Source of the DNA: a virus | DNA: 21,452 nucleotides | Virus record (IMG/VR): IMGVR_UViG_3300037504_001091 | Location: 1 to 21,452 of that record | Strand: one strand, 5' to 3' | Shown here: positions 6,528-10,929 of the stretch, one piece after another | Layout: every line of letters begins with the position of its first letter | Numbering within the stretch: position 1 is the first letter of the stretch | Program-made: the position numbers and the translations under genes | Notes under the pieces: generated by a model | Seen by the model: only the letters and a program-made list of their open reading frames with translations | Databases searched by the model: none | Told to the model about the DNA's origin: nothing

Positions 6528-7994
6528 ATGCCGCTACCGGTGCCGTTCACGGGAGAGTCACATGACGACTTCCTGGAGCGCTGTGTCGAGTTCGTACTCG
6601 AGCATGGCGAGGCCGAGGATCAAGAGCAGGCGGTGGCCATCTGCGCCACCCAGTGGTCAGTGGGAGGAGAACGTATGGGCAAGCAGGTAAAAGTCATCAA
6701 ATTCGAGGTGGTGGAGCAGCGGGAGGACGGTGGGCGCATCCGCATCTCCACCGCGGCGTTCGACCGGGATAACGATCGCGTCCTATCGCGCGGCGCCCGG
6801 GTCGACAACTACATGAAGAATCCCGTCGTTCAGTGGGGCCACAACTACTTCGAGCCGTGGGCCACCACGGGGCGCACGAACGCGCTGGAGATCGGCGACG
6901 GCTACATCGACGCGGATTTCACGCTGCGACCGGCAGCCAACGACAGCGACCCGCAGAACATCATCCGCCTGCTCTGGGCCGGTGGGTGGATCAACGCGGC
7001 CTCGATCGGGTTCCAGCCGGACCCCGAGAAGATGGTGGCCAACGACGCGGGCGGGTGGGACTTCGAGGAGTGGGAGCTGCTCGAGTGGAGCCTCGTCCCG
7101 GTCCCGGCCAACCAGGAGGCCCTCCGGCTCGCCGTGAAGGGCATGGTGAGCGCGGTTCCCGAGGCGCGGCAGCCCATGCGAGAGGCGACCTACCAGGCGT
7201 GCGGCCAGCAGTACCAAGCTAGCGAGACCCTGGCCGCCTACTACCTCGCAGGTCTGGCCCCGGCGCTCTGCGAGTCGTGTAGCGCTGCGCAAGAGGCCAA
7301 GCGTGTGGATGTGGAGCAGAAGAACACGTTGACGCGCTCGGGCCGGGCCTGGGTGCGCCGCATGAAGGCCCTGAGCAACGACGGCCGCCGGCAGGATCTT
7401 TTCGCGGTCTTCTGCGAGTACCAGGTGGAGGTCGACGAGGACGCCACGACGCTGGAGGTCGTGGGCGGCAACCTGCTCCAGGTGCCCCACCCCAACGCCG
7501 GGGAGACGGTCCACGGCAAGGAGGTGCACTTCGTGCCCCCGTTGGCCTACTACAGCGACAAGTGGGGCGACGACGCGCTCTACAGCGCCGGTGGTCCGGC
7601 GCTCCCGGATGAGGAGCTCGTCGCTCCCTGGGACGACGAGTACGAGGTGCTGGAGATTTCGGAGGTCCTGCTGGAGATCGAGGTGGAGAACGGCAAGAGC
7701 GCGCGGCCGGCGGCCAGGGTGACCAAAAGCTTGCTGGCGCTGCTCGAGAAGAAGGACGACGCTGGCGAGGAGGCCGACGTCGAGGCAGAGGTTGAGGAGG
7801 ATTCGACCGGCGACCCGCCCGACGTGGCGGCGCCGGATGATCACGAGGAGACCGAAGGCGATCCGGACCCGGGCCCCGGCGACGCGGCAGACACAGGTGA
7901 CGACGAGGAACTACCGCCGGAGTTGGAGGAGGCGCTGGCCGAGACGCTCGGCTCTGTACTGGAAATCGTAAGCGAAATCACGGAGGAGGAATAG
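6528..7994 (+). CDS. Prohead maturation protease (HK97/S78-like) with N-terminal mini-domain and acidic C-terminal extension
   Basis: 488 residues, about twice the usual length. Residues 1-45 (from MPLPVPFTGESHDDFLERC, with a Cys and a final QW) are a small phage domain often found before the protease. Residues about 50-205 are the serine protease: His105 in VQWGHNY and Ser159 in AASIGF are the expected catalytic pair, and LLEWSLVPVPANQEAL is the family hallmark. It would cleave the capsid delta-domain and scaffold. Residues about 265-410 are unassigned. The tail (about 410-488) is very acidic and may act as a built-in scaffold. An in-frame ATG at 6675 (codon 50) follows a strong GGAGGAG, so a second, shorter product lacking the mini-domain is plausible. 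Confidence 0.88.
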   Translation: MPLPVPFTGESHDDFLERCVEFVLEHGEAEDQEQAVAICATQWSVGGERMGKQVKVIKFEVVEQREDGGRIRISTAAFDRDNDRVLSRGARVDNYMKNPVVQWGHNYFEPWATTGRTNALEIGDGYIDADFTLRPAANDSDPQNIIRLLWAGGWINAASIGFQPDPEKMVANDAGGWDFEEWELLEWSLVPVPANQEALRLAVKGMVSAVPEARQPMREATYQACGQQYQASETLAAYYLAGLAPALCESCSAAQEAKRVDVEQKNTLTRSGRAWVRRMKALSNDGRRQDLFAVFCEYQVEVDEDATTLEVVGGNLLQVPHPNAGETVHGKEVHFVPPLAYYSDKWGDDALYSAGGPALPDEELVAPWDDEYEVLEISEVLLEIEVENGKSARPAARVTKSLLALLEKKDDAGEEADVEAEVEEDSTGDPPDVAAPDDHEETEGDPDPGPGDAADTGDDEELPPELEEALAETLGSVLEIVSEITEEE

Positions 7995-7998
7995 AGAG

Positions 7999-9330
7999 AT
8001 GTCTACTGGATTGGAGTTACTGTCTCAGCAGCTCGGTGAGCTGAATGAGACCATCAAAAACTATCACGCGGGCCGCGGCTCGCTGAATGAGGAGGAGGCC
8101 GCCCAGGGGTTGCGGGGGATCCTGGAGGGCGCGCAGTTGCTGCGCCACGGAGAGGCGCAGGCCGAACGGGAGAAGGATATCCTGGTCGGGCCTCCGGGCT
8201 TCCGCGTTCCCAAGAGTCCCATGATCCTGGAGGGGAAGTTCGCCGGGATGAAGCAGGCCGACCTGCAGTTCGTGAACAACCTGCTGATTGCGGCAGGGCA
8301 GTTCACCCAGAAGGTGCGGCCGCCCAGCGAGGCGTTGCAGAAGGCCCTCACGGCCGACGGCGACGGCACCGGCGACCAGCTGGTCCCCACGGCGATGGCG
8401 GCCGAGCTCTGGCAGGACTTCTTCCTGGCCTCACGTATCGTCTCCAACCTGCCACGCATCAACATGCCCACCGACCCCTTCGACTACCCCCTTGGCCTGG
8501 GTGACGTAACCTGGCGAAAGGGCACTCAGAACACGGTGACGACCGCGTCTGATCCTGCGACCGCCAAGAGCACATTGACCAGCACCGAGCTGGTGGCGGA
8601 GATCAACTGGAGCTACAACCTCGACGAGGACGCCATTGTGGCCGTGCTGCCGGCCCTGCGCCAGCGGCTGGCCATCAGCGGTCCCGAGGCCATGGACGCT
8701 TTCGTGCTCAACGCCGACGCGACCAACGCCGGCACCGGCAACATCAACCTGGACGACGCAGATCCGGCGGATGACAAATACTACCTGAGCAACGGGCAGG
8801 ACGGTATCCGCCACCAGTGGCTGGTGGACAACAGCGACATGGGCATCGATGCCGGCGGGGACGCTCTGACGGACTCCGACATCCTCGGCGCCCTGGCCCT
8901 GATGGGCAAATACGCCGTGGTTCCCGAACGGCTGGCGATGATCACCGACATCTACACCTACATCAAGGGGCTCATGGGCCTCGACGGGGTCCAGACGCTG
9001 GACAAGTACGGTCCGATGGCCGTCCTGCTGACCGGCGAGCTGGCCCGCTACCGCGGTATCCCCATCGTCCCCTCCGCCTCCGCTCCCAAGACCGAGGCCG
9101 ACGGTAAGGTCAGCACAACTTCGGGAAACAACACCCTGGGGCAGCTGTCCATCGCCCATCGAGACATGTGGGGCGTGGGCTTCCGCCGCGAGATGCTGAT
9201 CGAGGTCGACCGCGATATTCAGAAGCGGTCCCTGATCATGGTCGTCTCCTTCCGGATCGCGACCGCGTCACACGGCACCCGCGCCAGCAACGAGCACACC
9301 AGCGGAGTGTACAACATCTCCCTGAGCTGA
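7999..9330 (+). CDS. Major capsid protein, HK97 fold
   Basis: 443 residues with a strong GGAGGAGG ribosome site reaching back into the end of the protease gene, as expected for the most abundant virion protein. Residues 1-65 are helical and charged, fitting a delta-domain that is removed in maturation. The core starts around residue 110 with ALQKALTADGDGTGDQLVPT, the usual junction before the E-loop and P-domain. ELVAEINWSYNLDEDAI matches the spine-helix entry, and WGVGFRREMLIEVDRDIQKR with the following strands is the C-terminal A-domain pattern. It assembles into the icosahedral shell next to the portal. The assignment rests on this pattern and on its place right after the protease. Confidence 0.93.
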   Translation: MSTGLELLSQQLGELNETIKNYHAGRGSLNEEEAAQGLRGILEGAQLLRHGEAQAEREKDILVGPPGFRVPKSPMILEGKFAGMKQADLQFVNNLLIAAGQFTQKVRPPSEALQKALTADGDGTGDQLVPTAMAAELWQDFFLASRIVSNLPRINMPTDPFDYPLGLGDVTWRKGTQNTVTTASDPATAKSTLTSTELVAEINWSYNLDEDAIVAVLPALRQRLAISGPEAMDAFVLNADATNAGTGNINLDDADPADDKYYLSNGQDGIRHQWLVDNSDMGIDAGGDALTDSDILGALALMGKYAVVPERLAMITDIYTYIKGLMGLDGVQTLDKYGPMAVLLTGELARYRGIPIVPSASAPKTEADGKVSTTSGNNTLGQLSIAHRDMWGVGFRREMLIEVDRDIQKRSLIMVVSFRIATASHGTRASNEHTSGVYNISLS

Positions 9331-9425: not shown

Positions 9426-10151
9426 ATGAAGGGCAACTATACGAGACTGGCCTGGGTGGCGCTGGTTCTGGCGCTGGCCCTGGGATTGGCAGCCTGTCAG
9501 GGTGAGGAGCGCGCAGTGCGGGAGCGCATCGCGATCGACGCCCGCTCGGACAGCTATTTCTACAACGGCGCCGACCTGATATTCTACTCGGACGATCACT
9601 CCACGGACACTATCACACTGGACGGCGGCGAGGGTAGCATCGAACTATCCACCCTAACGCTCTCCGGTGATCTCACCGCAGCGACGGCGGCAATCGGCGG
9701 CGGCTACGGTGACACGGGAGCGTCTATCAGCGCCGCGGGCGTGGGGCAGTTCAATGGCGCGCTGACGGTCGATGGTGCCAGCACGCTGACCGGTGCAGTC
9801 TCCGCGCCCGGTGGTATGACCGGTGATGTGACCGGCGCGCTGACTCTCGCCACTGATGATTTTGTGACCCTGACGCCTGGGACATCGATTACCGTGACCA
9901 ATGGCGCGGCGTTCACGCCGACGGCAACGTATCAGCCCGTCGTGGCGGCGGGCGAGGTGACGCCGACGATCACGGCAGGGGCCACGGCTGGACGGCTGGT
10001 AGTGCTCACGAATACCGGGACAAACGTCATTAACCTGGCAGACTCGGGCACTCTTATGCTGAGCGCGGCCGCGGCACTCGGCCAATACGACTCGCTGACA
10101 ATCGTCAGCGATGGCACGAACTGGATCGAGATCTCGCGGAGTGACAATTAG
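9426..10151 (+). CDS. Predicted lipoprotein with repetitive beta-structure domain
   Basis: 241 residues. The ATG at 9426 follows ATAGGAG by 6 bases, so the N-terminus is well set. Residues 1-23 are a lipoprotein signal: Lys2 and Arg7, a hydrophobic run, then the lipobox L-A-A-C with Cys24 as the predicted lipidated residue. Residues about 55-160 are rich in Gly, Thr, Ser and Ala with repeated short strands (LTLSGDLTAATAAIGGG, GALTVDGASTLTGAV), like beta-solenoid or tail-spike stalks. The C-terminus, YDSLTIVSDGTNWIEISRSDN, resembles ends of phage fibre and decoration proteins. The combination is odd. Known phage lipoproteins block superinfection, but the rest of this protein looks like a virion part. 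It abuts the caspase-like gene with no gap. Confidence 0.8.
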   Translation: MKGNYTRLAWVALVLALALGLAACQGEERAVRERIAIDARSDSYFYNGADLIFYSDDHSTDTITLDGGEGSIELSTLTLSGDLTAATAAIGGGYGDTGASISAAGVGQFNGALTVDGASTLTGAVSAPGGMTGDVTGALTLATDDFVTLTPGTSITVTNGAAFTPTATYQPVVAAGEVTPTITAGATAGRLVVLTNTGTNVINLADSGTLMLSAAAALGQYDSLTIVSDGTNWIEISRSDN

Positions 10152-10724
10152 GTGCGCATTCTGGCGTTGACGGCGACCCGCTATCTGCGGGCTACGTTGG
10201 AGGTGGTCGGCGACGAGGCGGAGTTCCTCGTCGCCCCGCCTCTCGGCGCGGCCGAGATCAAGGCGCCACTCCTGGAAGGCTACGACGTCCTCTACATCGA
10301 CCTCCACGGCATCCCCAGCAACCGCTATCTCTGGGCCGATCCGGAGCAGATCTGGCCGGCGCTGGGCCTGGACGCAGTCCGGGAGGCGGACCTGCAGGGG
10401 GTGACGGTCGTCGCCACGACGTGCTGGCTGGATGAGACGCCCTTCCCGGAGGCCTTCGGGCAGTCCGGGGCCCAGGTGGTTGGGGGCGGCGGGCCGAACG
10501 TGGGCAGCCAGGGCGGCCGCGGGATGCTGATCGGAGCGCAGCTGCTGGCCAGGGAGTTGCTGGTCGGGCTACGTGCCGGCGAGGACGTCGCCGCGGCACT
10601 GGATGGAGCGCGCCGGGTCCTAGCCCGGAGCGTGTGGCGTTTGATCAACCGCCGGGCCGTCGATGACGCCCTGGCGTTCAGGGTTCTAACAGGAGGATCA
10701 GGTGAAACTCAAAGTCACGGCTGA
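10152..10724 (+). CDS. Caspase/CHAT-like cysteine protease candidate
   Basis: 190 residues, GTG start directly after the lipoprotein stop. The pattern is that of a small caspase-fold (clan CD, CHAT-like) domain. A first strand, RILALTAT, and a helix lead to YDVLYIDLHG with His52-Gly53 after a hydrophobic strand. TVVATTCW follows with Cys91 after the next strand, and then AFGQSGAQVVGGGGPN, resembling the helix-turn after the catalytic Cys. The segment ARELLVGLRAGEDVAAALDG and the end ALAFRVLTGG echo the last helix and strand of CHAT domains. His52 and Cys91 are the predicted dyad. The substrate is unknown: a virion protein, the adjacent lipoprotein or a host target. No other protease motif fits. 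The fold call is by pattern only. Confidence 0.65.
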   Translation: MRILALTATRYLRATLEVVGDEAEFLVAPPLGAAEIKAPLLEGYDVLYIDLHGIPSNRYLWADPEQIWPALGLDAVREADLQGVTVVATTCWLDETPFPEAFGQSGAQVVGGGGPNVGSQGGRGMLIGAQLLARELLVGLRAGEDVAAALDGARRVLARSVWRLINRRAVDDALAFRVLTGGSGETQSHG

Positions 10725-10929
10725 TTACGTCAACGGTGCCCGCGGGATCGGTTTCCGCGCGGGGCAGGAGATTGAGGTACCCGAGGTCTTCGGGCGATGG
10801 TTGCAGTCTGACGCCCCGGAGGTCTTCGAGGTGGTCGGGGAGGACGAGGGGTTGCCCGACAAGCCGCCCGCGGACAAAGCGGTGAAGCGCTCGAGCACGC
10901 GGCGCAAGAGCAAGGGCAAGAGCCAGTAG
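10702..10929 (+). CDS. Small phage protein of the head-tail region
   Basis: 75 residues, GTG start, AGGAGG 6 bases upstream; it overlaps the caspase-like gene by 23 bases. Residues 1-45 read as a compact beta fold: MKLKVTADYVNG, then FRAGQEIEVPEVFGRWLQSDAPEVFEV split by a short helix. Residues 46-75 are a charged tail ending in Lys/Arg/Ser repeats, which could touch DNA or acidic protein surfaces. Short proteins with this pattern (a strand pair, then GxxIEV and a helix with W or A-x-L) are common between capsid and connector genes; their role is not established. Confidence 0.75.
   Translation: MKLKVTADYVNGARGIGFRAGQEIEVPEVFGRWLQSDAPEVFEVVGEDEGLPDKPPADKAVKRSSTRRKSKGKSQ

Follow-up and report, generated by a model that had tools for sequence, protein, structure and literature searches.

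A divergent CHAT-like cysteine protease candidate encoded next to an anchored fibre-like protein in the head gene cluster of uncultured phages

An unannotated gene in the head gene cluster of an uncultured phage appears to encode a small cysteine protease related to the CHAT proteases, and it is consistently accompanied by a gene for an N-terminally anchored, fibre-like protein. We consider the chances roughly even that the two gene products constitute a two-gene module, in which the protease site-specifically processes its partner near the N-terminal, membrane-proximal region. The DNA analysed, referred to as the window, is a virus record of 21.5 kb (21,452 nucleotides; IMG/VR record IMGVR_UViG_3300037504_001091), which is probably a fragment.

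Gene and genomic context

The window contains tail genes as well as genes for a portal protein (PF04860), a prohead protease of the S78 type, a probable capsid protein and a head-tail adaptor. The first-pass annotation had placed the protease candidate inside a head cluster with a separate serine protease for capsid maturation, and this setting is confirmed, the separate enzyme being of the S78 type (6528..7994). The relevant features are as follows.

6528..7994, plus strand: S78-type prohead protease, separate from the CHAT-like protein (PF04586, E 2.4e-4, above the cut-off; phrog_80, E 1e-13)
7999..9330, plus strand: probable major capsid protein, marking the head cluster (phrog_1623, E 9.9e-7; phrog_10, major head, weak)
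9426..10151, plus strand: partner, an N-terminally anchored fibre-like protein of 241 aa with the lipobox LAAC at residues 21-24 (hydrophobic N-terminus and Cys24)
9504..9605, plus strand: conserved membrane-proximal motif of the partner, EERAVRERIAIDARSDSYFYNGADLIFYSDDHST, a candidate recognition or cleavage region (from the alignment; its identity tracks that of the protease)
10152..10724, plus strand: candidate CHAT-fold cysteine protease of 190 aa, representing a new phage family (ORF, 28 homologues, AlphaFold2, Foldseek and hhalign)
10305..10307, plus strand: codon of His52, the predicted catalytic base at the end of strand beta-3 (kept in 27/28; aligned to the CHAT His)
10422..10424, plus strand: codon of Cys91, the predicted nucleophile at the end of strand beta-4 (kept in 28/28; aligned to the CHAT Cys)
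10702..10929, plus strand: small protein of 75 aa after the module (similar small proteins in L002, L008, L010-L015 and L017)

The ORF at 10152-10724 is a genuine gene, whose GTG start codon lies right against the stop codon of the preceding ORF and is preceded by a GGAG sequence, while its 3' end overlaps the start of the next gene; a scan of the region for promoters and terminators returned nothing. The encoded protein consists of a single domain of 190 aa without a signal peptide or other export signal in its sequence and without a fused TPR or SAVED domain, and its neighbours are head genes rather than CRISPR or signalling partner genes.

Homologues of the capsid protein are present in the viral sequences L002 and L008-L015. 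Relatives with a similar capsid that lack the module carry either a glycosyltransferase-like gene or nothing in the corresponding slot, and the 75-aa protein is conserved in relatives with or without the protease-fibre module. The module itself follows the major capsid gene in differing head cassettes, consisting of an S78 protease and a capsid protein, of Mu-like gpT and Mu I protease, or of a fused protease/major-head protein. Because each head cassette scanned has its own prohead or fused protease, the CHAT-like protein is unlikely to serve as head maturation protease. The permanent location of its gene near the major capsid gene would also fit an enzyme that processes the capsid or another structural protein, or is itself packaged into the virion, but such a role appears very unlikely, given the dedicated or fused proteases encoded in the window and in every scanned cassette, and given that no CHAT gene was found in the available sequence of L002 and L009-L015, which represent phages with closely related capsids.

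The slot between capsid and connector genes can be described as an exchangeable cargo site. In L002, L009 and L011-L015, a glycosyltransferase-like gene past the capsid/decoration genes takes the place of the CHAT gene, and its product is about 470 aa long in L009 and L013-L015, apparently with an added methyltransferase-like part. Several further genes of these phages were recorded: a product resembling proteasome-type Ntn hydrolases (MSCIIGLVEGETVYIGADSAS...) encoded two genes downstream of the CHAT gene (L039:3633-4175), P-loop sulfotransferase-like genes (VLGTGRSGTSATAGMLH) in the structural gene cluster (L026:10338-10991 and L018:6328-6918), a DNA methyltransferase-like gene with a DLPYGTT motif between connector genes (L017:9386-10156), and, at 41-1711 of the window, a gene whose 556-aa product combines an amidase domain at the N-terminus (PF01510, E 6.5e-12) with a glycoside hydrolase-like C-terminal part.

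Homologues and conservation

Single-query scans of viral and genome collections yielded no relatives of the 190-aa protein. The first homologue was reached via the portal and capsid neighbours, with a portal-based scan leading to L004, which codes for a protein of 46% identity in the corresponding position, again following the gene of a similar anchored protein. Scans with a two-sequence alignment, then with an eleven-sequence alignment, and finally via the partner gene recovered 28 homologues, all of them on uncultured viral (phage) contigs. No relatives were obtained from a GTDB scan with the two-sequence alignment or, at the thresholds used, from deposited phages and plasmids (one chance match at E 7), and among PDB sequences both phmmer and profiles retrieved chance matches only. 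Pfam, PHROGs, NCBIfam and PADLOC gave no useful match either for the window protein alone or for the whole family.

Conservation was assessed in 29 distinct sequences, one of which stops before Cys91 while another starts after His52. Of the 28 sequences covering His52, 27 retain it, and Cys91, Asn116 and Asp172 are each kept in 28/28. The motif His52-Gly53 and Cys91 had already been singled out in the first-pass annotation as ends of hydrophobic strands, and they are indeed found at these positions, each after a strand of the structural model (residues 46-50 and 85-88, respectively); as judged from the alignment, the family-wide conservation that was proposed there as a check confirms that this placement is not due to chance. 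The homologous genes of L004 and L017 differ with a dN of 0.044 and a dS of 0.43, indicating purifying selection on the protease gene.

The exception at His52 is an Asn in L058 (L058:5714-6274), which retains the other key residues and may represent either a natural dyad variant or a sequencing error. A non-catalytic CHAT-fold protein acting as scaffold or chaperone for the fibre would account for such a replacement in an otherwise preserved fold, but is regarded as highly improbable, as the His and the Cys are kept almost throughout (27/28) and throughout (28/28), respectively, in a divergent family.

Predicted fold and relation to CHAT proteases

AlphaFold2 produced a model with a pLDDT of 91.7 and a pTM of 0.89 from an alignment of 23 sequences, whereas the single sequence led to a pLDDT of 55 and a model with which Foldseek gave nothing useful. 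The relevant part of the model consists of strand 46-50, His52, a short hairpin (59-61/69-72), helix 73-78, strand 85-88 and Cys91. In the caspase/haemoglobinase topology of clan CD, the catalytic dyad follows strands beta-3 and beta-4 (PMC4357240). Placement of the predicted dyad just past these strands makes clan CD topology well supported for the modelled protein, and His52 and Cys91 would be close in space, judging from the topology together with the alignment to CHAT proteins.

Structure prediction and comparison with CHAT and caspase folds had been suggested as a further check, and the best matches of the model in the PDB are indeed CHAT proteases. Csx29/TPR-CHAT ranks first (8eey_B, E 2.7e-5, prob 1.00, TMq 0.59), followed at ranks 2-6 by five SAVED-CHAT chains (8tl0, E about 1e-4, prob 1.00), so that the six best matches all belong to this group; further TPR-CHAT entries among the matches are 8d9f, 7y85 and 7zoq. 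Flavodoxins, caspases and C11 peptidases rank below the CHAT proteases, with E values of about 2e-3 for caspases and C11. A flavodoxin fold was rejected, as the query TM values reach only about 0.3-0.42, compared with 0.56-0.60 for the top CHAT proteases, and as the CHAT profile match described below has both dyad residues in register.

For a profile-profile comparison, nine bacterial CHAT proteins encoded on plasmids were fetched with a hand-written CHAT consensus probe. The family aligned with these proteins in hhalign with P 8.8e-5 over 152 columns (9.1e-4 in the reverse direction), with a score of 36.5 versus a maximum of 18.9 among 200 column shuffles, and with both dyad residues, His52 and Cys91, matched to the His and Cys of the CHAT proteins; the hhalign probabilities of this match are only 60% and 23%. 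By contrast, the proposed search with the PF12770 and PF00656 models did not bear out membership in these families, as neither of them scores by HMMER. For PF12770, the window protein gave no match at E<=1, the family members gave none either, and the model finds nothing in the window. The silence of both models indicates a divergent family rather than a member of the Pfam CHAT family. Based on the Foldseek ranking and the independent hhalign match, we conclude that the 190-aa protein is related to the CHAT proteases by fold and most likely also by descent, although it lies outside the Pfam CHAT model. The proposal of a caspase/CHAT-like clan CD protease is thus supported by the predicted fold, the conservation of the dyad and the hhalign register, from which proteolytic activity may be inferred.

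CHAT proteases have mostly been described as effectors of immunity and cell death in bacteria, and they are common in bacterial immune systems. In the best structural match, Csx29 of the type III-E CRISPR complex Craspase, the catalytic pair is H615/C658 (PMC10028731), which corresponds to the same His-Cys order with a spacing of 43 residues rather than the 39 observed here. The phage protein differs from Csx29 in being a stand-alone protein of 190 aa encoded by a late gene, without TPR or CRISPR partner and with another partner protein. It shares the CHAT fold with the SAVED-CHAT protease filament, but has no SAVED sensor domain and is encoded outside a defence locus. Compared to the bacterial CHAT proteins of PF12770, with which profile-profile homology and an aligned dyad are observed, the phage family has a shorter N-terminal part and no HMMER match, and an invariant GxGxN after beta-5 and the late Asp172 are particular to it. 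Caspases (C14) and clostripain (C11) share the topology with the dyad after beta-3 and beta-4, but they are weaker structural matches than CHAT, and the C11-type C-terminal extension is absent from the phage protein. Phage prohead proteases (S78, Mu gpI) occur in the same gene neighbourhood, but are serine peptidases of other folds encoded by separate genes. As a side observation, a 7.5-kb record labelled Bacteriophage sp. (L053, MT838002.1:3730-5253) contains a stretch 39.5% identical to the canonical CHAT consensus; this record may not be derived from a phage.

The anchored fibre-like partner

The partner proteins start with an N-terminal membrane segment, which includes a lipobox in several cases (LAAC in the window; similar in L008, L036, L058, L065 and L072), and most of them continue with fibre-like repeats. 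Some weakly match tail-fibre PHROGs or Phage_depo_C, the latter also being detected in the partner from the window (E 0.021). An anchored fibre-like or lipoprotein gene adjoins the protease gene in all of the 21 homologues with enough flanking sequence, including L034, where it lies within about 140 bases rather than directly next door, and L042, where the adjacent anchored gene is short (153 aa) and a fibre-type gene is found one position further upstream. Such an N-terminus is encoded by 4.7% of the other genes on these contigs, which corresponds to a chance of 9.2% of finding at least one such gene in two neighbours, a rough value because it assumes independence and some contigs are related (e.g., L028/L031). 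The partner is encoded upstream in 9 and downstream in 12 cases, so the arrangement does not represent one frozen operon. In a reverse scan with the membrane-proximal motif of the partner, nearly all contigs covering the relevant side carry the protease next to the fibre; the contigs L057 and L059 break off within the fibre gene, and L008, a contig of 4.9 kb, has a fibre without protease. The constant adjacency suggests that protease and fibre work as a pair.

Protease identity correlates with the identity of the first 50 residues of the partner past the membrane segment (rho 0.58) and not with that of its last 90 residues, the tip (rho -0.09), although the pairs are not independent, so that the respective P values should not be accepted as they stand. 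In L004 and L017, the proteases are 92% and the motifs 94% identical, while the tips are unrelated (25%). That the tips are exchanged while the protease stays the same suggests that the region that matters is the N-terminal part of the partner.

These data also bear on whether the protease attacks a host protein in the cell, either a defence factor or an essential one, with the fibre gene serving separately in surface display or superinfection exclusion and sharing the cargo slot. A protein of 190 aa without export signal, the frequency of CHAT proteases in bacterial immunity and the presence of other cargo in the same slot of relatives, such as glycosyltransferase-like genes, would agree with this option. 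However, a slot shared by chance predicts neither a pairing in 21/21 cases regardless of gene order nor an identity of the protease that tracks one part of the fibre, an early anti-defence gene would be unusual among the late genes of the head cluster, and PADLOC gave no match; we therefore consider a host target unlikely. Among the candidate substrates initially proposed for the enzyme, the comparative sequence data favour the adjacent lipoprotein.

Discussion

The gene, the conservation of the dyad, the pairing and the co-variation with the N-terminal part of the partner are observed directly, and the fold is supported by the model. In the reading we prefer, the 190-aa protein would be a minimal, stand-alone CHAT-type endopeptidase of clan CD with a His52/Cys91 dyad, which would be produced late, together with the head genes. 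In its partner, a lipobox or an uncleaved signal anchor would be combined with a conserved segment close to the membrane, a shaft of repeats and a tip that can be exchanged. A suitably timed cut in this protein may release the fibre, mature it or keep it away from the membrane. The proteolytic activity, the partner as substrate, the cleavage site, the timing and the purpose of the protease are what we infer from the comparative evidence.

The main difficulty for processing of the partner is a mismatch of compartments. The conserved segment and most of the partner are predicted to be outside the membrane and the protease has no signal peptide, so contact between the two proteins would have to occur before export or after lysis, or else involve the short tail in the cytoplasm. 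In addition, shared descent can produce both adjacency and co-variation, and the fibre-only locus of L008 and the Asn at His52 in L058 also speak against such processing.

Alternatively, a fibre with an exchangeable tip may sense a cue outside the cell, such as a competing phage, and activate a cytoplasmic CHAT protease that acts within the cell. Membrane anchoring with variable tips, the consistent pairing and the allosteric switching known from the CHAT protease Csx29 (PMC10028731) would be compatible with such a sensor-effector pair. It seems decidedly unlikely, however, because the cytoplasmic tails of the fibres comprise only a few residues, which makes signal transfer across the membrane hard to picture, the protease contains neither a linker nor a regulatory domain, and the L008 locus encodes the fibre only. 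A broader formulation, which we consider doubtful, is that of a virus-borne two-component surface system consisting of a modular tethered fibre and a dedicated CHAT protease which it activates or which frees it, i.e., a phage-encoded sensor and caspase-like effector (e.g., against competing phages) instead of a device for structural maturation.

The libraries and the literature searched (open-licence full texts only) contained no two-gene phage module that combines a CHAT protease with an anchored fibre. Fold and chemistry are already known, but the family appears to be new, as do its carrier and its partner. The proteins described here represent a divergent CHAT family that is carried by viruses themselves, encoded amid head genes across different head cassettes, and paired with an anchored fibre. 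For a recurrent, previously unannotated phage gene pair, this provides a small, concrete and testable hypothesis of enzyme and substrate, and it raises the question why a tailed phage would display a tethered fibre on the membrane of its host.
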